DNA of 64,000 nt from Kingdonia uniflora (Eukaryota > Streptophyta > Magnoliopsida > Ranunculales > Circaeasteraceae). The DNA is taken from the NCBI GenBank assembly GCA_014058105.1, contig JACGCM010002647.1, positions 1,426,001-1,490,000 of the forward strand, written 5' to 3'. Under the pieces are notes generated by a model. It did not search any database and was not told the origin of the DNA. It saw only the letters and a list, made by a program, of their open reading frames with translations. This document shows, piece after piece, positions 2,227-58,592 of the stretch (position 1 is the first letter of the stretch; each line of letters opens with the position of its first letter). Both the position numbers and the translations under genes were made by a program.

Positions 2227-2231
2227 GATAT
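2227..2231. repeat. Target-site duplication of Tat-1, left copy
   Basis: GATAT directly before the TG of the 5' LTR. It is identical to 16217-16221 after the 3' LTR. Confidence 0.9.
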
Positions 2232-2832
2232 TGAAGGAACCTATCCCTCGACCTAGTCCAAATTCGAACTTCCTCAGTATCAGACTCACGCGTTCTTCAC
2301 GTAACATGAATAGTTAGTATTAAATCCTATACCATGAACTGATAAAGAACGTAGATCGAGCACAACAAAATAATAAAAACAAGTCAAAGACACATGTCTC
2401 CCATGAACTCAGCAGTTATACAGTCAACTACTACTTACCTCATTATTCGGAGAATGTGCTTCAACACGATAACGAGTTGTGGGTAAGGTCTATATAAAGA
2501 AAAAGTTTTGGGGGAGATAGGGATGAAGAAAAACCATATTTTCTAGACTTTGACACATGAATTTCTAGATTCTTAACATTACAAAACTTCTTATTTACAA
2601 GATCATGCATTTCTAGTTTGAGAGATTTCTTGTAGTAAGATATCAGCCTCAAGTACTAAAAGTTACTGTTACTAAAACCCTTAACTCGTGGTCATGGTTT
2701 TTTACCTAATCAAAGGTTTTCCACGCCAAATCACTAGTGTCATTTCTTGGTTTACATTTATTTTTGTCACAGGCATATTTGGTGTAAGAGCTAATTTTGA
2801 GCCATTTTAAGCTACGGAATTCGGCCATTACA
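2232..2832 (+). repeat. Tat-1 5' LTR
   Basis: Starts TGAAGGAACC, ends GGCCATTACA. A TATA box (TATATAAAG) lies at 2491-2499. Downstream are the GGTTTTTTACC and GGTTTTCCACG blocks that recur in the other Tat LTRs. It aligns along its whole length with 15612-16216, with visible substitutions. Confidence 0.95.
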
Positions 2833-8494: not shown

Positions 8495-8963
8495 TCCTTA
8501 GTTTCGCCATTTCAATATTCTCGTTCTTTCTATTCTACAAGTGAGATTTCAATCTCCATACAGTATACATTCTATTCTACTCAATGAAAACTTCAAAGTT
8601 TTTCCCACATTACTCTCAACTTACGTAGATTCTACTAAATCCCATAGATTAAAGTAAAGGTAATACTAGCTTTCAATTGACCCTCTAGCACAGATTAAAG
8701 CAAAGGTAATACTAACTTTTAATTGCCTATCTAAACAGATTAAAGTAAATATAATACTAGCTTTCAGTCGACCTCTATACATAGATTAAAGCAAAGGTAA
8801 AACTAGCTTTCAATCGCCCATCTATACATATATTTGTGATTAAAACAAAGGTAATACTAGTTTTCAATCAAAGATCTTTAACAGACATACGATAAAGTAA
8901 AGGTAAAACTAGCTTTTATTTCTCAATATGTTTGTAACTACAGGTTACTTCTATAAGCCACTT
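8495..8963 (+). repeat. Tat-1 tandem array between pol and antisense ORF3
   Basis: From 8645 to about 8925 a unit of roughly 46 bp, AGATTAAAGYAAAGGTAATA followed by CTAGCTTTCAATYG, is repeated about six times with drift. It sits where the plus-strand pol gene and the minus-strand ORF3 converge. Tat-2 and Tat-4 have longer arrays at the same place. Confidence 0.8.
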
Positions 8964-11900
8964 TTAAGGGTTCATCTCTGTTGATGGGAGGTCAGTTACG
9001 CCTTCACCTACAACAGGAGGACGTTCAGCCATAAAATCTGGAGCTCGAGTAGCTACAATAATCCTACCTTACTCTACCAATTTAACAGGTTGAGAACCTA
9101 GCTCCATTTCTATGGCATTCATACAATTTCCTCGATCTATATTGACTTTACAAATACATCCTTGGGACGACAGACAGTCGTGCATGGTATCCCTCTTAAA
9201 CTCAAGTGTTCTTACTTCCTCTACAAAATAGGCAATAACAACCATTAACTCCTGTGAGTAAAATATTTCTTAGATAAAAGAGTTTCGATCGAGCATAACT
9301 ACCTCAGAAAAATCCTTTTGTAATCTCTGGTGACGATCTTTCAAGTTTTTATACCGTTCGTCTTGCCACTCCATGTGCTTATCTGCGTGTGACATAATCT
9401 CATTGTGCTCCTTCATCTTTTCCATTTCTTTATCTTAGTCTTCCTTGTTCGTCGTCCTCAACTCTGCCACCTGAGCACGAAATTGCTCAACCTCCTTATC
9501 TTTACCTACACTTCCCCCAGCAGGAGACTTCTTTAGAAACTCATCTTTCTTCCTTATCAACTGATACTTACCTCTAATCACCTCCTCTAACTCACGCTCT
9601 CTACAAAGAGAAATATCTTACTTATCTTGACTCGCCCTTAAACGTTTATTTTCTCTTTGTACATGAGCCTGAATTCAGACTACATCCTCCTACAGTTCTT
9701 GAATTTGAGCTAATAGGTCAACCACGTCCCCTTATACAATGGAGACCCCGGTATTGCCTTTTTTCTTCTTAGACCGCTCTCCAGCCTCGGCCTTCTTAAT
9801 ACGCGAATTGATCATAGCCAAATTTTCCTTCAATTGGGCCACCCTCTCATTCAATTCATCACATCGTCTTTGAACCATCTAGAAATTCATATCTTTAGCA
9901 TGTAAAGCCTCACTTAGTTGATCAGCCACACTTTCAGATTGGGTTAGGTCAGCTCGAGCTTTTCCAAGCTCATTTTCTTTCCTAGTCAGTTTACTCCTCA
10001 ACTCCACAGCAGCACTTATAGAATTGGCCAAATCAGCTCGTGCTTTCCAAAGCTCGTCCATTTTCCTGGTCACTTGACCCTTCAAACTAGCCACAAAATC
10101 TTGTAATGATTTTTCTGATACTTCTAACGACTGAATACGGTATCGAACCATGCTAGCCTATTTACATTTCACCATCAATGCATCAATCTGGATTTTGAGC
10201 TTCGTTGTATCCTCCTTCGCCTCTGCGGGATCTTTTTGCACTTTTTCTTATTTAAGCATCTTTCATCTCAATCTTCTAAGTCAGGTCATCAACAGTTTTT
10301 GTCGCCTCGACAAACCAAAAATGTACCTTAACATGTTGATCCTCCCTATCTTCAGTTGCCTCTCTAATCCAATCAAACTCCTTCACAAACTCTGGATTAC
10401 ATTGAAGCGTCTGCTGTTCACTCAAGCGAACAATCTTCAATTTGACCTACATCACAAATATAATATGTCAAACTCAAATTAGCAATACTACACGAGTACA
10501 ATCAAATCAAAATACAGGTGGCATTTAAAATTCTAACAGCTTTCTATTTTCTGACATTCTACTGTTGTGAGACCGCTTTTAAACCTAAGGTCAAAGAATG
10601 ATCTCAGTTCGTTGGCAATAACATCTACATCCAATTTCAAGGTACACATTTTCTATGTTTTAAATTTTCTAAACACTTTGGTATTATCTGGACATGCTCG
10701 ATTACCGTCGCCCCTAAACTTCTAGCACATTTTTAGTCTATCTATATACTATAATTTTTACTTTATAGCTCTAATGTAGTGCAACATACAAGTTAAATAT
10801 TTCGTGCTCTTCTCCGACTTGTAGCTCTGCTTGCAAAGTCAACAGGGACGTTGAGGTGTCTTTCTCCTTAGCAAGCTCATTCTCTAACTCCTCAATTCTG
10901 AGGCGCATATCCTTAAGTTCCTACAAACAATGTTTATAAACATTCTTTAGCCTATCCAAAATTTATCCTACAAAACAATATTCCATATAATTATAGTTTC
11001 TTAAACCACCAAAAAAAAAGCACACACAACTAAACTCCAACAAACTTTACACTACCTTCTCATTATCTTCCCCCGATTATCTAGATCAGTCCTGGGAGAA
11101 ACCCCATCCAGCCCTGTTACTACACCTTCTTCAGTAGGGACATCTTCTTCTACCTCGTCCTCTTCGACGAAGGTACCAGCCATATTGGCTTTAATATCAG
11201 CTTTGGTGTACCCCACTACAAGGAGTTGGCGCCCAAGTCTGTCGCGCTGAACTACAATATCATTCAGGTTCTTCTGAGCCTCCACTGTCAGCTCGCTAAT
11301 CAACACCTTCTGCGCAGCCTTCGCAGCAACCAGCCTCTCCCCCTCTAGAGCCAAGTCAGACTTTAGTCGAGCCACTTTCATATCGAGCTCGACCTTCCCA
11401 TTCTCGAGCTCAGCTTTTCCCTCCTCTATCTCGAGGCAGATCGCTTTCAACAAATGAATAGTCTACAAACAAAAAAACAAAAGTCAAATACATTTTAAGC
11501 TCAAATCCAAATACAAAGTTCGGAAATAGAAATTTCACCAACTTACCATTCTGCTCAACTCTAACTGTGCAGAGGCACTCAATTCCTCAACGCCCTTGCG
11601 AGCTATAAGCCTCACCCAATCCTCTATAGCTCGCAGCTCATCTTCCTCAGCAGGTCGGCTCTCCCTGACCTTTGCTCCCATTACCTTAGCCAGAGGATCT
11701 ATCCTCCTCTTATTTATAGTCTTTTCGACCTTCCACTCATCATGGTTTTGGAGGTCGAGCCACCCTTCCCAATCTTCTTCTTCGGAAATCTCAGAGCTAA
11801 CTTGCTAAAAGTGGTCACTTCCGGAACACCTCAAAATCCATATCAGTAGCCCTCGACAAAACCGGATGCTTCTCCTCATCTGCCCCTCTCTTCTTGCTAG

Positions 11901-13654
11901 CTCCAACACCCGTCATTAGTCTCTTCGCCTGAGACTTTTATACCTTCACGGACCTACTATTAACTCTTTTATTTCTGTTGATGCCGAGCTATTTTAGAAC
12001 TATCTCAAGCTCAACCCCTTCTCGACCAACAGTATCTAGCAATGACTCCTACTTTGCCACCTTCGACCATGGACCTAAAAAAGAAATACAACACATTGTC
12101 AGACCAAAGAACAACCTTCAATTACAACAGTTTTATATTATACAATATTACTTACTTTTCTTTAAAGTTCTATAAAAAAGTTTCATTGGTTATTCATCCT
12201 CTCTCTGAAGGCAATCACTCTTCACCCATATCACATTATCATTCCAAACACGACTTGTTGAATTCAGATTGAAGAAAAGCGGTTGAGACGAGCTCGAACA
12301 GAAATACGCGCCTCCAGTTGTAGCATAATGTTTCACATCGTAATATTGCAAAATGTCCTCAGGAGTTATTCTCTTCTCCACTTTATTTTTTCCTATAATC
12401 TATTGAGAGTCTCACAAATAATGATCACCCCCCACATGTTCCCATTCAGTTGGGCAAGATAAGCCTTTACAATATTCATTATCCCTTTAACAAGATTATT
12501 ATGGGGCAAACTTAGTCCATATTCCAATTGAGATAGATAATACGAGAAACCCTCGCTTAGGTCACCTCGAACATTCCCATCGATATACTCAAGAGAGATC
12601 GATTCATCCACTCCCCTATCCAATTTTTCCTTTTTTAAGTCAGGCAACAAGAAGAAATGCACTTCTCCAGATGCTACAATACAACCTCTAAACTGCCTAT
12701 CATCATATTCTATAATATTGCCCCATTTTCCACCAACAAGAGCTTTGGATTTGCAGAACTCTCTAAACACATCGGAGTTCGGAGGGTATGATACCAATTT
12801 ATCAGGGAAGTCTGGATATTGAACAAGTACTACTTCGTCCTCCCTATCAGACTTTACATTAACAGATTCTACATGCTCAGACTCAATCGAACGACCAGAG
12901 GTCGACATCTCAATATCAATTGAAGTCTTCATCTCAAATATAAAGCTTAAAAGTGAGGTTTGATTCTATAACAGATATTCCTCACGCTCGACCTACATAC
13001 AGGTCCAGGTATTTCCTCATTATCTTCTATCTACATACATCCATCTACACATATACCATACATACATCATACATATACGTCTATTATGCATATATCTCTT
13101 TTAATAAAAAAAAAACAAAAATCAAACAGATTTTTATAAAATTGCTATAAACAGGAATTTTTCAAAATTTGAAACCCACAAAATCTTTCAAACCCACATT
13201 CACAAAATCATAAATCAGTTACTAACCTTCAACGTCCGAGTATGAATTGTCAAATCCTTCCATCATAATGCTGTTATACAACCACCGTCCTGTTTCTTTC
13301 TCCCCAACTTTTTCTCTCCTTGAGGGTTGATCACTCTCGTCTAATCTTTCACGCAAATCTCTGTAATTTTTTCTCTCCTCTCTCCCATTGTTCTTTTGCT
13401 TTTCAAAAGTTAATAAACATTTGAATGAGGAGGATGAACTATTATATATATTTTTTCTCCCTCCAACTGCTGGCAGTTATTGGGCCTCGTACGAGCCGCC
13501 CTTAGTTTTGGAACTGAGGCATCCTTCCATAATTAATATAAGACGTTTTACACCTTTTTGGTGAAAATGCCTTCCCATTATTACCTCCTAATCTATATTT
13601 TAATATATTCTCATCTCTCCTACATAAATCTCTCTCTGACCTTCCCACACTCAT
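8964..13654 (-). pseudogene. Tat-1 antisense ORF3: spliced coiled-coil protein gene (degenerate)
   Basis: Exons inferred by comparison of four copies: 13227-13654 (ATG in a TCATGA context; motif GKAFSPKRC), 12156-12932, 11547-12074, 11056-11462, 10819-10920 and 8964-10446. Donors include GTAAGT at 12150-12155 and at 11541-11546; the intron at 12075-12155 is 81 bp. Exon 2 codes for a globular part (YPDFPDKLVSYPPNSDVFRE, later CSSSSQPLFFNLNS). Exon 3 has a basic NKRRIDP motif. Exons 4 to 6 code for heptad-like coiled coil (for example KARADLANS). The C terminus has YFVEEVR, NIDRGNC and GRIIVATRAPDFMAE, then TAA at 8964. Stops in several exons and the lost donor of exon 5 (GTCGG) make this copy a pseudogene. 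The family is unknown to me; it resembles plant proteins loosely labelled putative gypsy-type transposon proteins. Confidence 0.75.
10819..10920 (-). other. Tat-1 ORF3 exon 5 (102 bp)
   Basis: TTTGTAG precedes the exon; it codes for ELKDMRLRIEELENELAKEK and more, 34 codons in all. The following donor is mutated to GTCGG. Tat-3 (60235-60336) and Tat-4 (54186-54287) have exons of exactly the same length and phase. Confidence 0.75.
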
Positions 13655-13748
13655 GATGACTCGATACTCACACGCAATGGAACTTTCCCTGTAATTATAG
13701 AAGAGACAAAAATCAAAGCTCACCTGCTTTTTCATTTCCTACTTCTAC

Positions 13749-13756
13749 TACTTATA
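13749..13756 (-). promoter_or_regulatory. TATA box of Tat-1 antisense ORF3
   Basis: TATAAGTA about 100 bp upstream of the ORF3 ATG. The same octamer, or TATAAGTT, lies upstream of ORF3 in the other three copies. Confidence 0.55.
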
Positions 13757-13968
13757 GAACTGCTGCTGTCATTTCCAAAGGTATTAAATTTTAAAACTCA
13801 AATTCTTTATTCATAACTGTTCCAAACCACATTTACAACAAAATAGGACAGATTCAAAGAAAAACATCTGCCTACAATTCAATTACAGTTATTCGACCTC
13901 ATTCAATTTCCTCCATTACATATAATTACACATAAAACATCCCAGATGTCCTGGAAGGCCACACCTAA

Positions 13969-14160
13969 TTAGTTTTCCCCGGCAATCCTCACATCTTCCT
14001 CCTTGATCTCTTCTACAACAATTTTCCTTACAACCTCTTTTCGAGCTGTAGGCTCAAAAATCGCTTCCCGGAATATCTCCGAGTAGAAATGACGTCCTAT
14101 CCCAAGTTCCCTCATCCACGAATCTAAGCCATCAAACTGCAATTCAGATTCAGGTAAGTC
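13969..14160 (-). pseudogene. Tat-1 antisense ORF2, N-terminally deleted
   Basis: The C-terminal half of ORF2 is preserved: GIGRHFYSEIFREAIFEP and EEIKEEDVRIAGEN, then TAA at 13969-13971. Compared with Tat-3, about 300 bp holding the TATA box and the MxKTRS start is missing, with the junction near 14160. A conserved leader equivalent to 42360-42550 of Tat-3 remains at about 14160-14340. Function unknown. Confidence 0.65.
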
Positions 14161-14721
14161 AGATATCTATACAAATCGGCCTCGTTGGATTCGTCCACTC
14201 ACGTTTCAACCTACTCCTTACAATCTCTCCACCTATACAACATTTCCAAATATAGATTCCAAAAGCTCAAAATTTTCAATTTCTCATCTGGAAAGATATT
14301 CTTCCCCCATGATTCTAGAATTTCTTCAATTCGATACATATTTTTACACATCTACATATTTTCACAAACACATCTTTCACATGTATTAACTTATATTTTT
14401 CACAGTTCGACTAATAAAACTTTATTTTTTAGTTTGACTTCCAATATTTCATTTTCGTCCTCTAAATATACATATCTATACTTCTTATAGCTCAATTTCA
14501 ATCACAATAGCTAATTTTATCTATCAACATAGAGTTTGAAAAAAAAAATTCATTAACTCGAATCAAAGTTATAGATACTTTACAGATAACAAGTCTTTCA
14601 GATACTTTATAGATAACAAGTCTTTTAGATTCTATTACAGATCATTCGACAGGTTACATGTCACTTTTCAGTGATGTTTTACACAAAGAATCTTCTAAAG
14701 CAAAGTTGGAACTGGAAATCA

Positions 14722-15275
14722 CTAGGACTCCTTCTTCCATCGCACCATTTGCGTCCACAAGAAACTGAGGAAGCTAAGGGTGTCAGTGCTTGAACCAACC
14801 CTCCAACAGAAGGCCTTATTCACGCCATGAGACAATGATTGCGTAGGGGGAAAATTTAAATATCCGTCTTCCTCCCCCACCACCATCGTCTCCTCCTCCA
14901 TAACCCCTACCAACGGAGAGTTGCTAGAGATTAAAGGAAGTCCTACCTTAAAATCCAGTCATTCACAGGATACCGGCGATACTGCCACGCAGATACGCTG
15001 GCCCTCACATCTATCTCCTCAACCTTATCCTCCACAAGGATGAGAAGACACCTTCGACATTGTCCACCTGTCAAGACAACGTAATGAAATCTCCATATAT
15101 AGTAGAAGTTATCCTCAGCTTCAGCCGCTTCATCTTCAAACATCCCATGATTCGTCGATGGTACGGGAATTGGGGTGGGCATCTCCAGCGATTGATCCCC
15201 AAAATATCTTAACTTTAACCTCTGCAATTCAGTAAAATCTTTCTCTTCATACACCATTCGCCTGGTCTTCACCAT
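14722..15275 (-). pseudogene. Tat-1 antisense ORF1: small protein with Gly-rich tail
   Basis: An open frame at 14943-15275 starts MVKTRRMVYEEKDF, continues through FGDQSLEMPTPIPVPS, an acidic EDEAAEAEDNFYYIWRF segment and VEDKVEEIDV, and ends at 14943. Beyond the stop a Gly-rich stretch (GRGYGGGDDGGGGGRR, about 14857-14902) and TQSLSHGVNKAF (near 14800) match the in-frame continuation in Tat-3 and Tat-4, so the ancestral protein was longer. Its ATG is 75 bp after a TATA box, just inside the 3' LTR. No known domain is recognised; the tail is RGG-like, which would fit RNA binding (inference). Confidence 0.65.
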
Positions 15276-15342
15276 TATAACTCAGAGAATCTAGAAAATA
15301 TTTCAACCACAACGTACTTCGCCAAAGCTCCAATACATGTAC

Positions 15343-15350
15343 TATTTATA
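15343..15350 (-). promoter_or_regulatory. TATA box of Tat-1 antisense ORF1
   Basis: TATAAATA on the minus strand, 75 bp before the ORF1 ATG. Tat-3 has the same octamer at the same distance. Confidence 0.6.
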
Positions 15351-15600
15351 TCTTACTTATATTTAATACGCAGGTACGTTTCCAACACAATCATCATTCA
15401 AAGCAGAGCCACTCTCAGAACCCTGAGCATTAAATACATTAATCATTTCCATCGCCATAAATACAAGATACATCCCTTCAACAAAAATACCGAGTACCCA
15501 AACAGTCAAATCACCATTAAATACCTCCTATCTTTTCAACTTCTAACACCAATAATGAAAAAGTTTCTTCTCAACCAAAGCCATTCGCGTCTTCAGTTGT

Positions 15601-15611
15601 GAGGGGGCGAT
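15601..15611 (+). other. Tat-1 polypurine tract
   Basis: GAGGGGGCGAT abuts the TG of the 3' LTR. The same motif precedes the 3' LTR in Tat-2 (GAGGGGGCAAT) and Tat-3 (GAGGGGGTGAT). Confidence 0.85.
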
Positions 15612-16216
15612 TGTAGGGACCTATCCCTGGACCCAGTCTAAATTTGAACTACCTCAGTATTAGACTCACGCATTCCACACGTGACATGAATAGTCAGTAT
15701 TAGTACCTAGCTAGACCATGAACTGATAAAAAACGTGGATCAAGTACAACAGAGGAATAAGAACAAGTTAAAGGCATATGTCTCCCACAAAATCACCAGT
15801 TACACAGTCAACTACCACTTGCCTCATTTTTCAGAGAACATACTTCTGCACGATAACGAGTTTCGGGTAAGGTTTATATAAAGAAAAAGTTTTAGAGGAG
15901 ATAGGGATGAAGAAAAACCAGATTTTCTAGACTTTTACACAGGAATTTCTAGATTCTGAACATCACAAAACTTCTTATTTACAAGATCAAGCATTTCTAG
16001 TTTAAGAGATCATTTTTAATAAGATATCAGCCTCAAGCAATAAAAGTTATTGTTACTAAAACCCTTAACTCAAGGTCGTGGTTTGTTACCTATTCAGAGG
16101 TTTTTCACGCAAAATCACCTTTGTCATTTCTTGTTTTACATTAGTTTTTGTCACAGGCATATTTGGTGTAAGAGCTAATTTCGAGCCATTTCGAGCTACA
16201 GAATTAGGCCATTATA
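15612..16216 (+). repeat. Tat-1 3' LTR
   Basis: Starts TGTAGGGACC and ends GGCCATTATA, the final CA having decayed to TA. It aligns with 2232-2832. Followed directly by the target duplication GATAT. Confidence 0.95.
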
Positions 16217-16786: not shown

Positions 16787-17383
16787 GTAAGGACCAGATT
16801 TTGCAAAGCTCGAAATAGCTTGAAATCGATCCTTACACCAAGAACTACTATGGCAAGAATTAAATAAGGGATAACACTTCACACAGGGGATTTAGCATGG
16901 AAAACCTGTAAATAGGTATAAAACCACGACCTCGAGTGAAGGATTTTGTTAAAGTAGTATTATTGCTTGAGAGAGGGAGTATCTGATTATAAGAGTTAAT
17001 CAAAGAAAAAATAGCTAAAGATCAGATAATTGTGTGTATAGAATTGTCTATCGACTGTCCTGTTCCTTAGGAGCTCTGCCCTTTTATAGACCCTGCTCTC
17101 TTCTTAACATCGTGCTTGAACACGTTCTCCTGAAAGTGGGAGTCATGGGCAGTTGAGTGTGTAACTGCTAGCTCGTGGGAGATAGGTGTATGTTGACTTG
17201 TTCTGTTTACATCTGTTGTGGATGACCCACGTTCTGCTTGAGTTCGTGGTTGATGTGTAACTATTGACGTGTATGTAACGTGCTTGTTTATGCGTAAGTC
17301 TGGTACTGGATAGGATCGAGTCTTTCAGAGCTTGAGGTATATATGAGATCGAGTGTCCATAGCTCAAGGGATAAGTCCCTACA
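16787..17383 (-). repeat. Tat-2 3' LTR
   Basis: Plus-strand ends are TGTAAGGACC and AAGTCCCTACA. A TATA box (TATAAAAG on the minus strand) lies at 17081-17088. It aligns throughout with 30425-31023. Confidence 0.95.
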
Positions 17384-17603: not shown

Positions 17604-17666
17604 ATGGTCAGATCTGATCGCCGAATAACCTGCAACAAATCTTTACTTTGTAACATCTTGGTTAAG

Positions 17667-17983
17667 ATGAGGAATCGAGTGTATCATACCCGGTTTTCTT
17701 TCATCATTGAAGAATCCCGGATACGGTATTTTTGATATCAGAGTAGGGAAACTCCCTTTGTTGTTTTGTTGAAAGAATGTTATTTGAAAAATTTATGGGT
17801 ATTATGTAGCGTCCGATTTAGCGGTTGGGGTGTATGCGATACAAAATCCCTGGCCTCTAATGACGCTCTGATTTCTAAGGTAGGAGTCCTCTTCAAGCTC
17901 TACTAACTTTGGGTTGGTGGGGATAATAAGGAAGAGACGGCGGTGGTGGAGGTGGTGGAGGTGGCGTATGGAAGATGGATCGC
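17667..17983 (+). pseudogene. Tat-2 antisense ORF1 (degenerate)
   Basis: Identified by position and promoter rather than strong similarity. The ATG reads MRNRVYHTRF, then stops and frameshifts follow. Near 17932-17972 a Gly-rich stretch (GRDGGGGGGGGG) matches the tail of ORF1 in the other copies. The central FGDQSLEMP block is not recognisable. Function unknown. Confidence 0.4.
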
Positions 17984-18553: not shown

Positions 18554-18560
18554 TATAAAA
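18554..18560 (+). promoter_or_regulatory. TATA box of Tat-2 antisense ORF2
   Basis: TATAAAA 42 bp upstream of the ATG at 18596. ORF2 in Tat-3 and Tat-4 has TATAAATA 47-48 bp upstream of its ATG. Confidence 0.5.
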
Positions 18561-18595
18561 ATATGACTAATTCTTTAAGAAGGTTATTCATAAAA

Positions 18596-18973
18596 ATGGT
18601 GAAGACTCGCTCTCATAGGGCTATTGAAGCGCGTGCGTTGAACGACTTGAGCTTAGCACTCAAGATTGATGAAATAAGGGAACCTATTTTCGGGCAGCAA
18701 GGTTCTGATGCAGTTCTGCTCGAGACCCGTGCAAACTACGATGGTATGACTGATGTAAAAAGGGGCAAGGAAATGAACCGCGTGTACTGGTCTGAGTCTA
18801 TTCGTATCAATTGGCGGTCTGTTGAAGATCGCAAAGAGTTCATTATGATGATGGCAAGGGAGGAGATCATCAATGAGGATAAGCATATCGCCTCAGGGCT
18901 ACTGAAAGCTTGTGGTGTCGAAGGGCACACCGGTTGCTTCAAATGCAAGTATCTCGGAGATTGGAGTGATTGA
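18596..18973 (+). CDS. Tat-2 antisense ORF2, uninterrupted small protein
   Basis: A complete 125-codon frame starting MVKTRSHRAIEARAL, without a stop until TGA at 18971-18973. The start was chosen because MVKTRS recurs at ORF2 of Tat-3 (MMKTRS) and Tat-4 (MVQTRS); an in-frame ATG at 18539 would add 19 residues but would overlap the TATA box. The middle is charged (NRVYWSESIRINWRSVEDR), and the C terminus has CGVEGHTGCFKCKYLG, a Cys/His cluster that might bind zinc (inference). The body is poorly alignable with ORF2 of Tat-3. It is the only antisense small ORF here that stays open. Function unknown. Confidence 0.6.
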   Translation: MVKTRSHRAIEARALNDLSLALKIDEIREPIFGQQGSDAVLLETRANYDGMTDVKRGKEMNRVYWSESIRINWRSVEDRKEFIMMMAREEIINEDKHIASGLLKACGVEGHTGCFKCKYLGDWSD

Positions 18974-19122: not shown

Positions 19123-19130
19123 TATAAGTA
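19123..19130 (+). promoter_or_regulatory. TATA box of Tat-2 antisense ORF3
   Basis: TATAAGTA 54 bp upstream of the ATG at 19177. The same octamer precedes ORF3 of Tat-1 and Tat-4. Confidence 0.55.
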
Positions 19131-20657
19131 GGGCAAACAAAGGTACGTGGAATTTTAAAATAGATAATTCAGAATCATGAGTTTGGGGCATTGTGAAAAG
19201 AGTGGGACCAAGAGGCTGAGAGATACGCTAAAGTATAATATTTGGTGTTATGATGGGAAGGTGGTTTCACCGAAGCGGTACGACATGTCTGACAGGTTCA
19301 GACGAATAGACGGCTTGGTTCAGGAATCGAGGACTATTTATTCGAAAGCTCAAAACTGCCAGCGGTTCGGGGAAAGGTGTCCCTCTCTTCCCTTTCCAAA
19401 TACAAAAAACTAGAAACATAAAAGAAGGGTTAGGGAGATAGAGATCTCGACTGACGATTCCATTACCGCCGAAGGAGGAAAGGATAAAAGGAAAACAGTA
19501 TCTAGGAGTCTCTATTGCAAACAGCGAGAGGAGGCTGAGATCAAGAAAGGTTTGAAGAAGGTACAAAAATTAAGCAAACTGGTGAGGACCAACGCTGTAG
19601 ACTCTCACTCGGGTGTTGAAGGTAAGTCTTTCTTTGTGTTTATAAGAGTTTTTGTATAAAAATCTTTATTGTGTTGGGATAAGGATGTAATTCCCACCCA
19701 AACACAAAATAAAAATAATAAGGGGAATAATGACTACGGGGCGAGAAAAATCATTGTGTGATAATTGTGATTGTAGAAGTGATCTAGTAGTATGAGCTAA
19801 TAATTGATATATATACCTCGACCTATCTATAGGTTTTGTTGGAACAACTTCTTGTATAATAGATCCTTTACTGTAGATAAGTATGGTTTCAACCTCCGGT
19901 TGTGCAAAGGCTGATGAAGTAGACCTAGTAGGGTATTTATCTCCCTTCATTGGAGTATGGGACAAGGAGGATATTGTAGTAGAATTGGTAAAATGGCATC
20001 GTTTGAAGGGTTCTCGAGTTGAGTACCCTATGGGTTGTAGTCGATTTAGGGAGTTCTGTAAGGCCAAAAGTTGTGTAGATGGGATCTGGGGGTACGCCTT
20101 CGGATATAAGGGTAATTTCTTTAGGACTTGCAGTGTCAGACAAAGAGGGGATTAGCTATATTTTCTACCTGATTTGGCTAAAGAAAAGAAGTGCAGGCAC
20201 TTGGGGGACGAAGTGTCCTTGGAGTACGTTCAAGGCGTGGTGAAGGAGAGTCGAACTGATGGTTTTTGTTATTATTTAGCCCAGTTCGACTATGGGTTGA
20301 CGATGTATTTGAGCAATTTGGCTAAGAGTGTTATGAATATGATTGGGGCTTGACCGATGCAGCTAAATTCCAATTTATGGGAAGTTATCCTTGTATGCAA
20401 AACCCTTAATGAGAGATGGGCTGCATCTGGTAGTGAGAGTAGGATTACTGCCAAGGATTTTCTGGAGTATTTCGCTGTGAAGTATGTCACAGCAACTGAT
20501 GGTGCATATCTATTTTCTAGTTCTTCAAGACCATGCTTCTTCGACCTATCTTTAGCAGGGCGAGTGTGGAACGACAACCATTTATGGGTGTTTGGTGAAT
20601 GTCTTCAGCGGTCTGATAAGGAACCCCTGGAACTTAATAATAGAACTATAACAAAGG

Positions 20658-23626: not shown

Positions 23627-24532
23627 AATTGAATTATGATAACGAGTACCTTGTGTAATTAGCAGATGTTGATGCTTCAGTGACCGATTGAATTGATCAG
23701 TGTTTTTTGTAAGCCCTTGAGAGGAGCGTTGTAATATGAAATGTTGATATTGGAAACTAACATTTTCTTCGCCTGCAGTAGATGTTATTCTCTGGTTCGA
23801 CCCATCAAATTAGAAGAAGTCCGTGGGTGTAGAAGTAAGTATTATCTGTGCTTTAACCCTTGGACTATAGAAAGGCTTAGCAGCATCGAGCAAGTTTTTT
23901 CCTCACTCGTGCTTTAGGCATGTTATCTTCAGGCTAAGAGATTCGTTATGGTCCCCGCCTTCAGATGTATGAGTATCCTCAGGAGTTAGGCTAGTATCAT
24001 CTATGCCATTACCAATATTGGATGTTGGAGCATATCGGCAGCTAACAAGTTTTTTCCTCACTCGTGCTTTAGGCTTGTTATCTTCAGGCTAAGAGGTTTG
24101 TTATAGCCTCCGCCTTCGGATGTATGAGTATCCTCAGGAGTTAGGCTAGTAGCATCTATGCCATTACCAATATTGGATGTTGGAGCTTATCGGCAGCGAG
24201 CAAGTTTTTTCCTCACTCGTGTTTTAGGCTTGTTATCTTCAGGTTAAGAGGTTTGTTATGGCCCCCGCCTTCAAATGTATAAGTATCCTCAGGATCTAGG
24301 CTAATATCATCTATGTCATTACCAATATTGGATGTTGGTTTTACCCTTAGGTATCAAGCAAGTATAAACTGCACTTTAACCCTTGGGTGGAGATGGATGG
24401 AGATGAAGTGGAACTGTATAGCAGGGATTCTTGTGATAAAAAAGAGATTTCATTGATTAAAAAGAGTTTGTACATACATTGGAGGTAAAACCTCGAGGTG
24501 GATTGGGCGTTGCTGAGCGACGGAGGAGCTGT
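23627..24532 (+). repeat. Tat-2 tandem array, 155-bp unit
   Basis: Three head-to-tail units with starts (CAAGTTTTTTCCTCACTCG) at 23891, 24046 and 24201, so the period is exactly 155 bp; the array ends near 24340. Flanking parts share TTTAACCCTTGG. It lies between the convergent ends of ORF3 (23626) and pol (24533). No ORF is supported here. Confidence 0.9.
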
Positions 24533-28585: not shown

Positions 28586-30340
28586 TTATTTCAGATAGCT
28601 CTCATCTTTATAGCTGGAAAGATCGATGATGTATTCGAGCATCCTCCCTTCCTTGAAAATGATATCCAGGAGCTTCCTCAAACCATAGCAATTGTCGGTG
28701 CTGTGGTGCTTAAACTTATGATATTCGCAATAAGGCCGGCCTGCTATTGGATCTAGAGGTCGAGCTGGACGGAAACATTTATCTTTCTGGAGAACAGGAT
28801 AGATCACAGAAAGCTTGGAATTCAACTTTGGTATGACTGTTCTGGATGGTTTCTGCGACCTCTGATTGTTGTCTCTTCCTGGTTCTGTCTTTGCTCGCTT
28901 AGGATCGCCTTGATCGCTCGAGCTGCGGTTGTTGCTGGAATCTGTAGAAGGAACCTTGGTGTTGTGGACTGCCTTTACCAGTTTATTCGGTTCGAGTATC
29001 ATCCACTCCAGATCAATGTAATTGTTAACTTTCTCGATCATATCTTTGAGAGTTTTGGGCTTCTTCAGGAAGAAATACTCTTAAGCTTTGCAATTGAACT
29101 GCAGAGCATTTGTGAATGCGAACACGGCTGTCTTCTGATCTAGATTGTCAACCTTCCGAACCAGTTCGAGAAACTTCATGGAGAACTCCTCGACCTTTTC
29201 CCCTTGTGCTTGTTTGAGACTTATAAGAGAATGTAAGTTCTCTTCTTTGTCTTTGCTGTGGGCATAAGCCTTGATGAAAATTTTCTGTAATTGCTCGAAG
29301 GTATGAATCGAACCTTCCAGTAAAGAGTGGAACTAACGGAGAGGTTTATCCTGGAGACTGGTAGTAAAGAGCCGACAAAAGATGTGATTCAGATTAGAAT
29401 ACAAACCCAATGAATCGCGGAATTGTTGAACATGTTGGCCAGGATCGATTCCTTTGTATTTGATGATCTTGGGTGCATGAAAACCTGTTAGGACATTCAT
29501 ATCAAATAATTCTTTAGCAATTGGACTACCTTGTAATTCTTTAGCAATTGGACTACCTTTGTATTTGATGATCTTGGGTGCATGAAAACCTGTTAGGACA
29601 TTCATATCAAATAATTCTTTAGCAATTGGACTACCTTGTAATTTATACGAGTCATCCTTCGCGTCTAAAGCAGTTGCTTCGATGATCTCCCTGGTACGCT
29701 GGTCCATGAGCTCCTGAGATATATAATGCTGAGGGATAGGAGCTGCTGGAACTATTAAAACTACTGGAACTGTCGGAACTATTAGAACCGCTTGATGTAT
29801 GAGTCTGGGAACGTGGTTACCTGTTTCCTCGCTCATATGTTTAGGAAGTGGAGCTCAGTAAAGAGGTCGCAGGACTTCCTCAGGTTGCTTGGAAGGCCTG
29901 CGATCTCTGCTGATATCTGTCTGCACCTCCTGTCCAAAATGAATTGAGACTATCGGTGTTTGTGGATCCTCACAAGGAATCCTGGAAATGTCTATACTGC
30001 GTACCTCATGTGGCCCTAACCTCTCGTGAACGGAAACCCTTCAGGTCGCTGGTACTATCTCGCGTTCTCTCTGGGCTGGTGGTGGTTGGCTACTCTGTAA
30101 TGCTTTCAGAGCTGTTTGAAAAGCTAATATCCGAGCTTCTTGTTTCTCTGTCTCCATAACTCGAGCTTGACGCTCTCGTTCTAACTCCTTCTCGCGGAGC
30201 TCTTGATCTGCCAATAGTAGACGTTCGAGCTGACTCTAGTTCTCGGCTTCGGCAATTAAGCTCGCCTGAAGTTCAGCAACCTGATCTGTCCCCCTTGAAC
30301 TTTCTGGCTGAGCTCCCAAAGATTGACGTGTTTGAACCAT
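28586..30340 (-). pseudogene. gag: Tat-2 gag (degenerate)
   Basis: ATG at 30338-30340 reads MVQTRQSLGAQPESSRG, followed by a coiled-coil-prone N-terminal part (QELREKELERERQARV). The Retrotrans_gag-type core includes RDSLGLYSNLNHIFCRLF. Near 28700 a CEYHKFKHHSTDNCYGLRK segment gives the CxxHx4Hx4C finger intact. Only a few stops interrupt it. A 105-bp in-frame duplication lies inside (29451-29643). Its N terminus resembles those of antisense ORF1 and ORF2. Confidence 0.85.
29451..29643 (-). repeat. Exact 105-bp-period duplication inside Tat-2 gag
   Basis: Positions 29451-29538 recur without change at 29556-29643. The 105-bp period is 35 codons, so the frame (FDMNVLTGFHAPKIIKYKG) is kept. A third partial copy of AATTCTTTAGCAATTGG lies between. 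Confidence 0.95.
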
Positions 30341-30405
30341 AATTGAATATTGCTTGACTGATGAGTATTTATCATGGCTCTTAAGTACGTGGAAAAACTG
30401 TGTGT

Positions 30406-30424
30406 TCCCACAGACGGCGCCAAA
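30406..30424 (-). other. Tat-2 primer-binding region
   Basis: TTTGGCGCCGTCTGTGGGA on the minus strand, abutting the 5' LTR. It is the best preserved in the window. The primer tRNA was not identified. Confidence 0.85.
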
Positions 30425-32343: not shown

Positions 32344-32348
32344 AGATT
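32344..32348. repeat. Target-site duplication of Cop-1, left copy
   Basis: AGATT, against AAATT at 37554-37558: four of five bases match. Confidence 0.6.
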
Positions 32349-33012: not shown

Positions 33013-33023
33013 ATCTCCCACTT
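33013..33023 (-). other. Cop-1 polypurine tract
   Basis: AAGTGGGAGAT on the minus strand, abutting the 3' LTR; a usual plant copia sequence. Confidence 0.85.
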
Positions 33024-33085
33024 GAAATTGAATCTCGTAACCCATCTCTAGATCTCTAAATGAATTGATCGCACTACCCGTACCT

Positions 33086-36921: not shown

Positions 36922-36947
36922 CGCTCTTCACCATATAAGCCCTGTAA

Positions 36948-36963: not shown

Positions 36964-36965
36964 AT

Positions 36966-41455: not shown

Positions 41456-41959
41456 ATGGTGAAGACCCGGTGAATGGTATATGAAGAGAGAGTGTCTGCT
41501 GAAATACAGAGATTGAAGTTGTGATAGCTTGGGGACCAATCTCTGGAGATGCCCACGCCTATTCCCGTACCGCCGACTTACCATGGGATTTCAGAAGACG
41601 ATACAGTTGAAGCCGAAGATGACTTTTACCATATGTGGAGATTTTATTATGATATTCTAACAGGTGAGCAGCGTTGGAGATGCATTTGCATCCTTGCAGA
41701 GGACAAGATTGAGGCGACAGATGTAGGGGCCAACATATATGCAAGGCATTACTACTGGTATCCTGCGAGGGACTAGGTTTTAAGGTAGAACCTCCTTTTA
41801 CCTCTACCAATTCTCTCAGTTGGTGGGGGTTATAGAGGAGGAGGAAGATGGTGGTGGAGGAGGAAGATAGAGATTGAAAGTCTTGCCCATACACAATCAT
41901 TATCTATTGGTGTGAAGAAAGCCCTCGTGCGGAGGGTTGGTTCAAGCACGACACCATAG
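41456..41959 (+). pseudogene. Tat-3 antisense ORF1 with Gly/Arg-rich tail
   Basis: One frame runs from ATG 41456 to TAG 41959 with a few stops. One is TGA at codon 6, where Tat-1 has CGA; two are TAG, the first where Tat-1 has TGG. It reads MVKTR, then GDQSLEMPTPIPVPPTYHG, an acidic EDDTVEAEDDFYHMWRF block, LAEDKIEATDVG, and in the same frame the tail VGGGYRGGGRWWWRRK and THTQSLSIGVKKALVRRVG. The frame is shared with Tat-1 and Tat-4. Function unknown; an RGG-like tail would fit nucleic-acid binding (inference). Confidence 0.65.
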
Positions 41960-42656: not shown

Positions 42657-42695
42657 TGAGGGAAATGTGATGCAAAGAGGATGAAGAAAGAGAAT

Positions 42696-42995
42696 ATGAT
42701 GAAGACTCGCTCTGAGAGAGTTTGTCATGCTGTTGAGGGATGATTGTCGATAAAGATTGTAGAAGTGAGGGAGAGGATTTTTGGGTTGTTCGATTACGAT
42801 TCTAACTTGCCTGAATCTGAAATGCAATTTGAAGGCTTGGATGTGAGAGAGAAGAAACTTAAGATCGGGCGTCATTTTTACTATGAGATATTCCATGAAG
42901 TGATTCTGGAACCTGCAGATCAAAAAGAGGTCGTAAGGCAAATTACTGAGGAAGAGGTCGAGGAAGAAGATTTGAAGATTGATGGGGCAAACTAA
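42696..42995 (+). pseudogene. Tat-3 antisense ORF2
   Basis: 100 codons with a single in-frame TGA near the start: MMKTRSERVCHAVEG, stop, then EVRERIFGLFDYDSNLPESE, IGRHFYYEIFHEVILEP and an acidic end EEEVEEEDLKIDGAN. The RHFYxEIFxExxxEP core is kept in Tat-1, and partly in Tat-4 (YARYFYESFFRVFI). Function unknown. Confidence 0.65.
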
Positions 42996-43208
42996 TTAGG
43001 TCTGGCTCTCCAGGATATCTGGGATATTTTATATGTAATTATATGTGAGGGAATGAACTGAATGAGGTCAAATAACTGTAATTGGAATGTATGTAGAATG
43101 TTTTGCTTGAATATATTCTTGTATTGTTGTAAATGCTGTTTTGAACTGTTGTGAATAAAAAACTTAAATTTTGAAATGCGATATTGTTGTAAATGACGTC
43201 AATAGTTT

Positions 43209-43216: not shown

Positions 43217-45185
43217 GCAGAAGTTTGAATGGAAAAAGGATAGTGGCTTTCATATTTTGTCTCTTGTGAAATTTGTAGGGAAAGTTTGATTGCGTGTGAG
43301 TATCGAGTCATCATGAATGTAGGAAGGTCAAAGAGAGATTTGGGTAGGAGATATGAGAATATATTGAAATATAGGACTTGGGGTAATGATGGGCAGGTGT
43401 TTTCACCGAAAAGATGCGAAACGTCTTACATTAATTATGGAATGGATGCCTCAGTTCCAAAATCGAGGGAGACTCAGGCGAGGCTCAATAACTGCCAGCA
43501 GTTAAAGAGAAAAAATATAAATAATAGTTCATCCTCCTCATTCAAGCGTTTATCAACTTCTAAAAAATGAAAGAATAGTAGGAGAGAAAAGAAAAAAAAA
43601 TTGTAGAGATTCATGTGAAAGATTAGACGAGAGTGATCATCGCTCAAGGAGAGAAAAGGTCTCGGTGACAAAGTCACGACAGTGGTTGCACAACAGTATT
43701 GTAAATGAAGGATTTGGTGGTACTTCAGATTCATACTCAGACGTTGAAGGTAAGTGAACGAATTATGATTTTTTTTAATGTGAGGTTTGAAAGATTTTAT
43801 GGGTTTTTTTTAAAAATTTTGAAAACTTATTGTTTATAGTAATTAAATTTTTTATTTGATTTAGGTGTAAAAGGAGATATGTATAAAAAAATTATTAGAT
43901 TTATGAATAAAAAGAAAAATGTAAATGATATACGTATATATATGATGGATGTATGGTAAATGTGTGCATGGATGTGTATAAATAAAAGATAATGATAAGT
44001 TGACAAAATACTTGGACCCGTATGTAGGTTGGGCGTGAGAAATATTTGTTATAGAATCAAACCTCATCTTTAAGTTTATAATTAAGATAGAGACTTCACC
44101 TGATATGGAGACATCGACCTCTAGTCATACGATTGAGTCCGAGAATGTAAAATCTGTAAATATAAAGTCTGAGAGGGAAGACGAAGTAGTACTTGTTCAA
44201 TTTCCAGATTTCCCTGGAAAATTGGTATCGTACCCTTTGAACTCTGGTGTATTCAAAGAGTTATGTAAATTCAAAGTTATTGTAGGTGAAAAATGGGGCA
44301 ATATTGTAGAACATACCGGTAGGCTGCTCAGAGGTTGTACAGTATCATCTGGGGAAGAGCATTTCTTCTTGTCGCCTAACTTAGAAAAGGAGAAATTGGA
44401 TAGGGGAGTGGATGAATCGATCTCTATTGAGTATTTTGATGGGAATGTCCATGGTGACCAGGACGAGGGTTTTATGTGTTATCTGTCTCAGTTGGAATAT
44501 AGACTAAGTTTGCCCCTTTGGATTATTGCTACCATAGAGGATTGTCCTGCCCAACTGAATGGGAACATGTAGAAGGTGATCAATGATTGTGAGACTTTGA
44601 ATAGATTGTGAGACTTTGAATGAGGTGGAGCGAAGAATAACTTCTGAGGACGTTTTACATTACTACGCTATGAAACATTATGCTGCGACTGGAGGTGCAT
44701 ATTTTTGTTCGAGCTCGTCTCGACCACTTTTCTTTGATCTGAATTCAGTAGGTCATGTTTGGAATGATAATGTGATATGGATGAAGGGTGATTGCCTTCA
44801 GAGAGATGATGAAGAACCAATGGAACTTTTGTATAGAACTTTGAAGAAAAGTAAGTAATAGTGTATAATATCAAACTATTGTAATAGAAGGGTTATTCTG
44901 TTGTTTAATAATGTATTATGTTTGTGTTACAGGTCCTCAATCAAAGGTGACTAGAAAGGAATATCACTGCTAAATATTGTTGCTCGAGAAGGTGTTAAAC
45001 TCGAGATAGTTCTGAAATAGCTCAGCATCAATTAAAATAAAAGAGCTAACATTAGGTCAGAGAAGGTGTAAGAGTCTCAAGAGAAGAGACCAATGACGGG
45101 AGTTGAAGCTAGCCAGAAAAGAAGAGCGAACGGGGATGTGTGTCCGGTATTGCCGAGCACTTTGAACATAGATTTGGAGGATGTT

Positions 45186-55400: not shown

Positions 55401-56804
55401 CATAACGATAATTTTATTTATGCATGTTTTTATTTGCTTTACAGATCTAAATCGGAGGTCCAAAAGTTTCTCGTCATCTCTTTGTAGGCAATTACTCTTC
55501 ACCATATGATGTTGTCATTCCATGTTCGACCTGCTGAATTCAGATCGAAAAAATAACGTCGAGTAATACTCGCACAGAAGTACGACCCCCCACTGGCCAT
55601 AAAATTCTTCACCCCATAAAACTGTAGAATGTCCTCAGGGGTTATCCTCCACACTTTTTTCTCCCTTCCCACCTATCATTCAGATGGTCACATACAGTTA
55701 TGACCTCCCACATATTCCCGTTCATTTGAACGGGACATGCCCCAATTGTATTCATTACCCCCTTCGCCAAATTAGTAAGGGAGGGCACAACCCATACTCT
55801 AATTGAGATATGTAACACAGAAAACCCTCTGAAATGTCACTCCGGATATCTCCATTAAAATACACGAACGAGATCGATTCGTCTATACCCCTATCTTATT
55901 TTTCTGCGACCAAATTTGCCAAAAGGTAAAAATACTCCTCCCTTTCCGCTACCGTACAACCCCTAAACTGCCTGCTGGCAAACTCTGCACATTTACCCCA
56001 CTTACCTCTTATAGCCCCCTTGGCTTTACAAAATTCTCTGAAAGCATCAGAACCCGGATAATAAGATACCAACTGACCAGGGAAACCTGGAAATTATTCC
56101 AATCCTCCTTCTACTTTGCTATCAGACTCATTCGTCCTACCAGAGGTCGAAACCTCATTAACAGATGACCAACCAATCTTAAAAATACTCTACAAGACTA
56201 TTTCGAACTACACAGATGCCTCTCACGCTTGACCTACATACCAGTTCAAGTATTTATCATTCTTCCATCTATGTATACGTATATATCTATATATTTAGCA
56301 TATATCTCTGATAAGTCAGTCATGCATAACGCATATTTACACTATAGAATATCAAAGTATATTGCATACATATCTCTGCTAGCCTTCAATTTCCGGATGC
56401 GAATCAGCAAAAGAGTCAAGCTTCCTCCTCAATACACTGTTATATTCCTACCTACGAGATCCCGAACCTTTTCCCCTTTTTAACCGTTTATCGTCTCCCA
56501 AAAATTCTTAATTTATTCCCCTGATCTTTTGCTTTTCTCTCTGTTTTCTCTACAAGTCTTTTGTGGTAAAACAATTATTAGGAGACGAAGAACTGTTTAT
56601 CTTTTCTCTCTCATGCGGCAGGCATTTATTGCCCTTCGCACAAACCATCCTCGATTTTGGAATCGAGACGTCCTTTCTACTCTCCATGTCAGACTCCTTG
56701 TACCTTTTCGATAGAACCACCTTTCCATCATAACAACTCTCCTCATTTATTAACATGTTTTGTTGCCCTATTTTCATATCTTTTCTTAACGCCCCTTCAC
56801 TCAT
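52496..56804 (-). pseudogene. Tat-4 antisense ORF3: six-exon coiled-coil protein gene
   Basis: Inferred exons: 56384-56804 (YDGKVVLSKRYKESD; donor GCTAGC), 55443-56170 (globular part with several stops; SSGSYFCAS-type block and FFDLNSAGRTWNDN), 54870-55356 (basic GKRRRVESLGGSG), 54386-54795, 54186-54287 (102 bp) and 52496-53881. The last exon is a single long frame with only two stops, MSQVELDESPVREDHALMCN onward. It is nearly all coiled coil and ends with TYFVEEVKMLESEGD, VEIDRGNCLGIMETQLG and LVERGRVAVA. Donors ATG|GTAAGT at 54864-54869 and acceptors TTGCAG, TTCCAG and TTGTAG fit plant splicing. Same architecture as Tat-1 to Tat-3; function unknown. Confidence 0.75.
54186..54287 (-). other. 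Tat-4 ORF3 exon 5 (102 bp)
   Basis: TTTTGTAG precedes the exon, which codes for VVKEMSLRINDIESGLAREI and more, then GTTAGA. Length and phase equal those in Tat-1 and Tat-3 although the sequence has diverged strongly. Confidence 0.75.
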
Positions 56805-57124: not shown

Positions 57125-57418
57125 TCATTCACCAATTCTCGTATCCTCAAAATTGATCTCCACTTTAGCAATCAAACCCAGCACCCTTTCTCGTTCTGCC
57201 AAATTCCTTATGAATACACGAAAAAATGACTCATAAAAGTAACGAGCATACTCAAGTTCTCTACTCCTGATATCTAACCCTTCGAGCTGGCACACCCTCA
57301 TTGGTAGTTCAGCATCGTAACCAAGCAAGCAAAAAATTCTCTTTCGTACCTCAGCAGTTTTTATGGCTAATTAACCTTTTGCAGTATGACGAATCCTCTA
57401 AGATCGAGTCTGCACCAT
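57125..57418 (-). pseudogene. Tat-4 antisense ORF2
   Basis: Start MVQTRS at 57418, with stops shortly after (an early TAG and a TAA), then an open stretch from 57328: LGYDAELPMRVCQLEGLDIR, SRELEYARYFYESFFRVF and a charged end EINFEDTRIGE. The LEGLDxRxxE core is shared with Tat-3 (FEGLDVREKK). Function unknown. Confidence 0.6.
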
Positions 57419-58163: not shown

Positions 58164-58592
58164 TCAGCAAAATCTTCCTACCAGTTTTCCTCCTCCACTG
58201 CCACCACCGCCTCTTCTATAACCACCACCACTGTAGAGTTGGTAGAGATAAAGAGGGCCCAACCTTAGAATCCCTGGCACCATAGAAAATTAGTGCATCT
58301 GCCCCGCAAATACATCTTTCCCACTATATGAACCCCTAACCCTGTCTTTCGCAAGGGTGCGGAGACAGGCCCAACGCTCCTCGCCCATCAAGACAAAGAC
58401 ATTAAATCTCCACTTACAGTACAAATCTTCATCAGCTTCAACCGCTTCCTCTCCCGATAAGCCTCGATATGTCGGAGGAACAGGCGCTGAGACCGCCATT
58501 TCTAGGGACTGGTCACCAAAGTACTTCAACTTCAACCGCTGCGCTTCAGACGCAATTTTCACTTCAAGAACCATACTTCGTGTTTACACTAT
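58164..58592 (-). pseudogene. Tat-4 antisense ORF1 with Gly/Arg-rich tail
   Basis: The ancestral start appears as ATA at 58590-58592 (I-V-stop-T-R-S for MVxTRS). From 58574 the frame is open: MVLEVKIASEAQRLKLKYFG, DQSLEMAVSAPVPPTYRG, an acidic EEAVEADEDLYCKWRF block and LAKDRV, to a TAA at 58290. The same frame then continues through LYSGGGYRRGGGGSGGGKLV to TGA at 58164. Tail and core match Tat-1 and Tat-3. Function unknown. Confidence 0.65.

Follow-up and report, generated by a model that had tools for sequence, protein, structure and literature searches.

Background

Antisense extra open reading frames (ORFs) occur in Tat-clade long terminal repeat (LTR) retrotransposons such as Retand (PMC7264820, PMC11963269), as an earlier interpretation of the DNA analysed here, made from its letters alone (the sequence-only reading), had correctly stated. 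In the passages of the literature drawn on here, antisense Transposase_28 ORFs are given for 97% of the recent Retand clusters surveyed, with 104 antisense ORFs overall (Vicient 2025, PMC11963269); that survey was limited to ORFs of 600 bp or more, except that shorter ones were considered for Transposase_28, and placed a tandem array next to pol or the 3' LTR in about half of the Retand clusters. Transposase_28 was assigned to 23% of Retand elements by Neumann (2019, PMC6317226). Gene23 of Grande has its own promoter and a nuclear protein, and a search for antisense and spliced transcripts was called for in the same paper (Vicient and Casacuberta 2020, PMC7264820). The existence of antisense genes, one of them with a promoter of its own, was already on record (PMC7264820, PMC11963269). 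Here, the region between pol and the 3' LTR was analysed in four Tat/Retand-like elements (E1 to E4) of Kingdonia uniflora, all located in one stretch of 64,000 nucleotides (contig JACGCM010002647.1, positions 1,426,001 to 1,490,000, assembly GCA_014058105.1), which is referred to in full as the window.

It is probable, in our judgement, that these elements carry at least three antisense genes, each of which would have a core promoter of its own, be transcribed from it by RNA polymerase II (Pol II) without recourse to the LTR, and give an accessory protein. Gene order, coding signal, the conservation of TATA boxes and splice sites, intron phase and the similarity between two of the genes were observed directly, and the observation is genuine and more than chance. 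The sequence-only reading had proposed three Pol II genes, ORF1, ORF2 and ORF3, in place of one accessory ORF; these correspond to gene a, gene b and exon 1 of a long gene, respectively. TATA-like boxes and sequence constraint fit that proposal, which has to be amended in that ORF3 belongs to a multi-exon gene and ORF1 is lost in E2.

Organization of the antisense genes

The four elements lie in the window as follows.

E1, plus strand: LTRs 2230..2830 (5') and 15610..16214 (3'), pair 86% identical
E2, minus strand: LTRs ~16788-17383 and ~30427-31023, pair 92% identical
E3, minus strand: 3' LTR ~40536-41108, element extends past the window edge
E4, plus strand: LTRs 45190-45767 and 58826-59402, pair 90% identical

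Comparison of translated pieces gave, among the matches listed, a single antisense order running from the 3' LTR towards pol, with gene a first, then gene b, then a series of further pieces. Profile searches recovered gene a clearly in E1, E3 and E4, and both gene b and the opening piece of the third gene in all of E1 to E4; in E2, gene a has left only a trace (17661-17783, independent E-value 0.0087, profile positions 2-42), and no TATA is visible at the position aligned to the gene-a box. The constant antisense order of ORF1 to ORF3 in four elements, as claimed by the sequence-only reading, was therefore upheld except for the reduction of ORF1 to a trace in E2, and the order recurs in 18 of 20 further loci of the genome. 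E1 and E3 are close relatives (77-78% identity across the antisense block), with E4 and E2 more distant, and the insertion of E4 sits within E3.

The 1.003 Gb assembly was searched with gene a, and 150 of the 16,044 first-look candidates were scored, all with E <1e-37; 35 of these 150 matches were free of stops. Twenty 8-kb loci (L031-L050) were taken as the best gene-a hits and are consequently biased to relatives of E1. Gene b followed gene a in 18 of the 20, exon 1 was likewise present in 18, and strand and order were identical wherever parts were present. One locus retained gene a only (L046), another was without gene b and exon 1 (L047), and in L037, L040 and L041 the parts of the block were more widely spaced, as if by insertions. 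Loci L051-L058 were picked as stop-free gene-a rows, and the stop-free share is not a genome rate.

The assignment of E1 to E4 to the Tat/Retand group is probable and is based on their layout together with a weak Transposase_28 match described below. A reverse transcriptase domain (RVT_1, PF00078) was matched in the window at E 7.3e-17. The region from pol to the 3' LTR, with its antisense coding units, measures ~7.2 kb in E1, E2 and E4, where the end of pol is an estimate placed at the point at which similarity between the elements stops. Tandem repeat arrays adjoin pol, lying between it and the end of the antisense genes:

E2 tandem array: 23883-24338, unit ~155 bp
E4 tandem array: 51716-52191, unit ~157 bp
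E1 tandem array: 8646-8828, unit ~46 bp

Predicted TATA-type core promoters

The short genes a and b and their TATA-like boxes are located as follows.

E1 gene a: 14943..15275, minus strand, 110 codons plus stop, open frame
E1 gene-a TATA-like box ATATAAATAG: 15342..15351, minus strand, 75 bp before the ATG
E3 gene a: 41456..41785, plus strand, frame broken by stops; TATAAATA starts at 41381
E4 gene a: 58266..58592, minus strand, altered start codon; TATAAAAA starts at 58653
E1 gene b remnant: 13917..14163, minus strand, promoter deleted together with roughly the first 35 codons
E2 gene b: 18596..18973, plus strand, open frame
E2 gene-b TATA-like box: 18554..18561, plus strand, 42 bp before the ATG
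E3 gene b: 42696..43045, plus strand, broken; TATAAATA starts at 42649
E4 gene b: 57131..57418, minus strand, broken; TATAAATA starts at 57465

The long third gene begins at the following positions.

E1 long-gene TATA-like box TATAAGTA: 13749..13756, minus strand, 102 bp before the ATG
E1 exon 1: 13227..13654, minus strand, frameshifted, ends at the donor GTTGAAG/GTTAGT (slash at the boundary)
E2 long-gene TATA-like box TATAAGTA: 19123..19130, plus strand, with TGACGTTA upstream
E2 exon 1, first part: 19177..19410, plus strand
E3 exon 1, first part: 43313..43567, plus strand; TATAAGTT starts at 43209 and TGACGTCA lies at 43194
E4 exon 1, first part: 56553..56804, minus strand; TATAAGTA starts at 56918

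Each of the three units looks to have its own TATA-type core promoter, judged by a box at a fixed distance from the start. Counted from TATA to start, this distance was 72-80 bp for gene a, 42-51 bp for gene b and 99-107 bp for exon 1 in most copies. Within the window it was 75 bp in E1 and E3 and ~61 bp in E4 for gene a; 42 bp in E2 and 47 bp in E3 and E4 for gene b; and 102 bp in E1, 104 in E3, 114 in E4 and 54 in E2 for exon 1. These counts agree with the spacings given in the sequence-only reading (55-75, 42-48 and 54-114 bp for ORF1, ORF2 and ORF3), as does its report of a deleted ORF2 box in the first element: E1 is without the stretch matching 42549-42800 of E3, which holds the gene-b promoter and start.

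The motif TATA[AT][AG][AT] was present in the expected interval in 33/36 copies for gene a, 14/18 for gene b and 15/16 for exon 1. Left out of these counts were L032 for gene b (start deleted) and, for exon 1, L037 (promoter insertion) as well as L039 and L050 (start not placed). Random spacer windows of equal width held the motif in 8.9% (a), 7.2% (b) and 17.3% (exon 1) of cases, and shuffled promoters in 15%, 12% and 20%, respectively. Since the copies are related by descent, the counts are not probabilities, and conservation rank is the better control; among eight-column windows, the TATA columns ranked 1/324 for gene a, 12/492 for gene b and 28/292 for exon 1.

At the third promoter, 8 of 16 copies have TGACGTCA, which we take to be a bZIP-type site, and in 11 of 16, the distant E2 and E4 among them, a relaxed form of it precedes TATAA[AG]T by 4-22 bp; as a site of that promoter TGACGTCA is suggestive only. 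Another TATA-like stretch, 13441-13450 on the minus strand, is among the most conserved 10-base windows and was set aside as a promoter because it lies inside exon 1. It is probably coding and could be an alternative promoter. The alignment behind this conservation ranking comprised E1 and 13 of the 20 long loci, and the donor alignment the same 13 plus E1 and E3.

Predicted structure of the long gene

The remaining exons of the long gene in E1 were predicted as follows.

E1 exon 2: 12156..12965, minus strand, frameshifted in E1
E1 exon 3: 11547..12074, minus strand
E1 exon 4: 11056..11462, minus strand, coiled-coil-like by eye
E1 exon 5: 10819..10920, minus strand
E1 exon 6 region: 9072..10446, minus strand, coiled-coil-like, broken, 3' end approximate

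The third gene is predicted to be spliced, with at least six exons, GT-AG introns and conserved phase, as in host-type genes. ORF3 as a single ORF was rejected, since it extends to a conserved donor, beyond which further exons follow; of the three separate ORFs of the sequence-only reading, three antisense units remain, in a block that is larger than three ORFs. In most copies exon 1 is one frame of ~146 codons, with some stops, ending in GTTGAAG/GT[T/A]AGT. Five introns were predicted in E1 (13226-12966, 12155-12075, 11546-11463, 11055-10921 and 10818-10447). Among copies with homologous exon flanks, and with a mean E1 dinucleotide retention of 0.62 in the region as baseline, canonical dinucleotides were retained at donor and acceptor in 14/14 and 10/14 copies for intron 1 and in 13/15 and 8/12 for intron 2, at donor 3 in 7/8, at acceptor 4 in 10/11, and at donor and acceptor 5 in 11/12 and 8/10. 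Acceptor 3 and donor 4 received no score under the homology filter and gave 14/15 and 11/15 unfiltered.

Local frames on the two sides of introns 1-5 were in phase in 9/11, 10/12, 9/10, 9/11 and 6/7 decided copies, or 43 of 51 in total (six more undecided), against one third expected by chance. Read straight through, exons 2-5 stayed in frame in L039, where they contained 2, 2, 0 and 0 stops (other frames: 25/29, 17/13, 10/11 and 2/4), and in L050, with 4, 1, 0 and 1; in both, the tail of exon 1 has 3 stops in the carried frame. L031 was in frame in exons 2-3 only (0 and 1 stops), followed by 12 stops in exon 4.

Exon 2 matched Transposase_28 (PF04195) at 12.2-15.0 bits in L031, L033 and L036, at a constant place (profile positions 2 to 42-43) and as the sole Pfam match at E<=10 for these exon-2 pieces. 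The curated cut-off is 26.2 bits, and membership of the long gene in the family by that cut-off was rejected. No Transposase_28 match was obtained in the window pieces scanned. The exon-6 piece gave weak coiled-coil-type matches.

Coding constraint

The ratio of nonsynonymous to synonymous substitution rates (dN/dS) between E1 and E3, in the right antisense frame, was 0.17-0.31 for gene a, 0.41 for gene b and 0.23-0.29 for exon 1. Median values over copies were 0.35 for gene a (n=33, L016 and L054 having been left out of the 35 unique copies in the gene-a coding tests because of indels), 0.46 for gene b (n=16), 0.57 for exon 1 (n=12), 0.39 for exon 2 (n=13) and 0.41 for exon 4 (n=8). The a-b spacer, read in six frames, gave 0.55-0.94 as a baseline without codon structure. 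The sense frame sharing third positions was low for every gene (0.43-0.65, non-spacer sets), and single dN/dS values are not to be pressed, because these sense frames and the next frame of gene b are low as well. The dN/dS per ORF across copies to which the sequence-only reading had pointed thus placed gene a and exons 2 and 4 below the controls, with gene b and exon 1 less clear.

Changes were further divided into singletons, which are mostly post-insertion, and shared changes, which arose mostly in the active lineage. For gene a, the numbers of nonsynonymous and synonymous changes (N/S) moved from 46/5 among singletons to 69/36 among shared changes (odds ratio 0.21, p 0.00064), and for exon 1 from 75/19 to 56/35 (odds ratio 0.41, p 0.005), in each case in the right frame only. 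For gene b, better evidence comes from residues, including CG..GH.GCF.C, that it has in common with the distant E2; with E4 or E2 included, its dN/dS medians were 0.28 and 0.31 (pooled ratios of nonsynonymous to synonymous proportions, pN/pS, 0.52 and 0.59; three sequences each). Taken together, the comparisons fit coding constraint on all three genes, evident in gene a and the long gene and weaker in gene b.

The short genes a and b

Genes a and b look short and intronless. Gene b has 117 codons in related copies, and both genes begin with MV[K/R]TR. Alignment of their profiles (1-91 to 1-94) scored 32.1, with E 4.7e-5 as a single comparison, where the maximum of 200 column shuffles was 20.7; the a and b profiles scored <=15.5 against exon 1 and exon 2. 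The two are likely, though not certainly, a tandem-duplicated pair. In terms of the sequence-only reading, ORF1 and ORF2 would be the two members of this pair. A frame of E2 at the inner edge of its 5' LTR (30239-30544, minus strand), probably the start of gag, reads MVQTRQS, near the common start of a and b, which may be coincidence.

The C-terminal region of gene b contains C-G-x-x-G-H-x-G-C-F-x-C, seen by eye and broken in some copies (e.g. L022/L050), which is possibly metal-binding; no zinc-binding family was matched in Pfam at E<=1 among five members. Nothing was found below E 0.06 for genes a and b in Pfam, no solved structure was significantly similar (best E 0.34 and 0.16, respectively), and the AlphaFold models, with mean predicted local distance difference test (pLDDT) scores of 46.4 and 44.9, were too poor for fold comparison. 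Gene b had no match at E<=1 in the protein database with either of two alignments used. Gene a had a single match there, a fragment in the Kingdonia uniflora gene model GIB67_003075, which joins part of gene a to a tail labelled PF00450, presumably a peptidase family. This model is probably an annotation artefact or a chimera.

Downstream of gene b, AATAAA was found within 220 bp in 10 of 15 copies, in 7 of them at +103 to +106 and ahead of the third promoter; all AATAAA counts given here are without a chance control. The end of gene a lies in a block (14880-14965, minus strand; 17858-17950, plus; 41768-41855, plus; 58205-58295, minus) that has AAGGT in 14 of 14 aligned sequences (E1-E4 and ten chosen loci) together with a CTCTACCAACTC-like stretch. 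It is a possible splice donor and is still recognisable in E2 despite the decay of gene a.

Other features of the window

Direct repeats at 32348-32907 and 36965-37503, 84% identical, flank pieces of a Ty1/copia-like polyprotein on the minus strand (32348-37503), the Ty1/copia call having been made by eye from translations. The Rfam scan gave 0 matches at gathering scores, the tRNA scan none, and the scan with a defence-gene library no match.

Proposed mechanism and alternative explanations

Under the explanation that we favour, host Pol II would initiate separately at the core promoter of each antisense unit, with no need of the LTR; the third transcript would be spliced, and the products would be accessory proteins helping the element. 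Introns in antisense orientation are not spliced from genomic RNA. The introns of the long gene may survive retrotransposition through their antisense placement, because the sense genomic RNA carries them in an unspliceable orientation, which gives a possible reason for the placement itself. The accessory proteins would most likely act in the nucleus, by analogy with the Grande gene23 protein (PMC7264820).

A number of observations weigh against this explanation. E1, E2 and E4, for which the window contains both LTRs, are old (LTR pairs 86-92% identical), and numerous frames have been disrupted. Conservation of the TGACGTCA columns is unremarkable (rank 84/292). Acceptors 1 and 2 were canonical in no more than 10 of 14 and 8 of 12 copies, respectively, most copies lose the read-through frame to indels, and the frame carried from exon 1 had the fewest stops in 12 of 15 rows in exon 2, in 6 in exon 3 and in 4 in exon 4. 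Among the coding tests, gene b had 0.50 in the next antisense frame as compared with 0.46 (16 copies), the pairwise dN/dS of exon 1 was 0.57 as compared with 0.62-0.75 in its other frames, the shared/singleton comparison of gene b was not frame-specific (p 0.10, 0.05 and 0.11 in three frames), and that of exon 2 was not significant (p 0.084). The a/b score without the shared MV[K/R]TR start fell to 22.2, which was matched by 1 of 200 shuffles. Finally, the stop of gene a overlaps a conserved AAG/GTAGGA, a possible splice donor, and gene a might itself be an exon.

This last point leads to a single antisense transcription unit, starting at the gene-a promoter, in which a and b would be exons or upstream ORFs and the later TATA-like boxes coincidences of AT-rich DNA. 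Such a unit would account for the AAGGT at the gene-a stop, invariant in the 14 aligned sequences even where gene a has decayed in E2, for a third TATA whose conservation is only in the top tenth, and for the uncommon AATAAA after gene a (6 of 20 loci had one within 220 bp, and 12 of 20 within 450 bp). It is unlikely in view of the fixed-spacing TATA boxes before all three starts and the AATAAA that 10 of 15 copies have between gene b and the third promoter; splicing at the gene-a donor, moreover, would leave two bases over, out of phase with acceptor 1. We judge it quite improbable that the units act mainly as RNA, with antisense transcription regulating or silencing the element and the proteins mattering little. 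That possibility was raised by Vicient and Casacuberta (2020, PMC7264820) and suits the many copies with stops (35 of 150 scored gene-a matches being stop-free), but it does not account for the frame-specific constraint in gene a, exon 2 and exon 4, and in gene a and exon 1 by the shared/singleton test, nor for introns whose phase is preserved in 43 of 51 decided cases. RNA and protein roles can coexist.

The block could also consist of the ordinary Retand antisense accessory ORFs, with only the host species new, as would follow from an antisense Transposase_28 ORF in nearly all Retand clusters (PMC11963269) and from Grande gene23 with its own promoter (PMC7264820). We hold this to be possible, yet doubtful: genes a and b (~330-350 bp) fall under the 600 bp survey limit and so would have gone uncounted, and in the main text of PMC11963269 the string 'intron' occurs 0 times, the passages shown for 'promoter' and 'splic' belong to the reference list, and 'tata' is part of tridentata. 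That the element carries captured host genes is highly improbable. Introns and TATA-type promoters look host-like, against which the only database match of gene a is the Kingdonia fragment, gene b has none at E<=1, and neither has a Pfam match below E 0.06; this database argument is weak, because plant repeat proteins are often omitted from protein databases.

Three or more independently promoted antisense genes remain the preferred explanation. A stronger version, in which the element bears a small regulon of three host-type genes under separate promoters, a and b being duplicates of a novel protein family and antisense placement both preserving the introns and permitting expression with the LTR promoter off, is put forward as tentative and somewhat doubtful; if it were true, the products might be, for example, early regulators or anti-silencing factors. 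The layout, which may be new, points to elements that express some of their genes without relying on the main promoter, and the findings bear on the role of antisense genes in Retand-type elements. As a 600 bp ORF cut-off would miss a and b, the block may be more widespread. The predicted start sites, splice junctions and proteins are now concrete and can be checked with existing RNA reads.

Comparison with known systems

In a literature search by listings, which did not take in the original Grande and Retand papers, no report turned up of multiple antisense promoters, of introns or splicing in such genes, or of an a/b pair. As far as the passages used of PMC11963269 go, the Retand antisense Transposase_28 ORFs share with the present block their antisense orientation, their place between pol and the 3' LTR, Transposase_28, SMC-like ORFs and pol-adjacent tandem repeats. 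The Kingdonia block differs from that survey in that its Transposase_28 match is sub-threshold and belongs to a gene of several exons, and in two additional genes that are under the 600 bp limit; its region between pol and the 3' LTR is also longer (~7.2 kb, estimated, versus <=6,556 bp in the table of PMC11963269).

Maize Grande gene23 (Gomez-Orte et al. 2013, via PMC7264820) is likewise an antisense accessory gene in the 3' internal region, but the passages used describe one gene with one promoter, whereas three promoters and an a/b pair are predicted here. ORF4 and the other antisense ORFs of Silene Retand, as presented in PMC7264820, agree in orientation and in Transposase_28, and weak, ubiquitous expression is reported; separate promoters and introns are not described for them in the passages used of that source, whereas both are predicted here.

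A further parallel, mentioned in both PMC7264820 and PMC11963269, is HBZ of human T-cell leukaemia virus type 1 (HTLV-1). HBZ too is encoded antisense near the 3' end of its retroelement, with its own transcript and a product that is a nuclear regulator. The HBZ mRNA is spliced. The HBZ promoter is in the 3' LTR, whereas the predicted promoters of the Kingdonia genes are internal and of TATA type, and the likeness between the two is one of layout.

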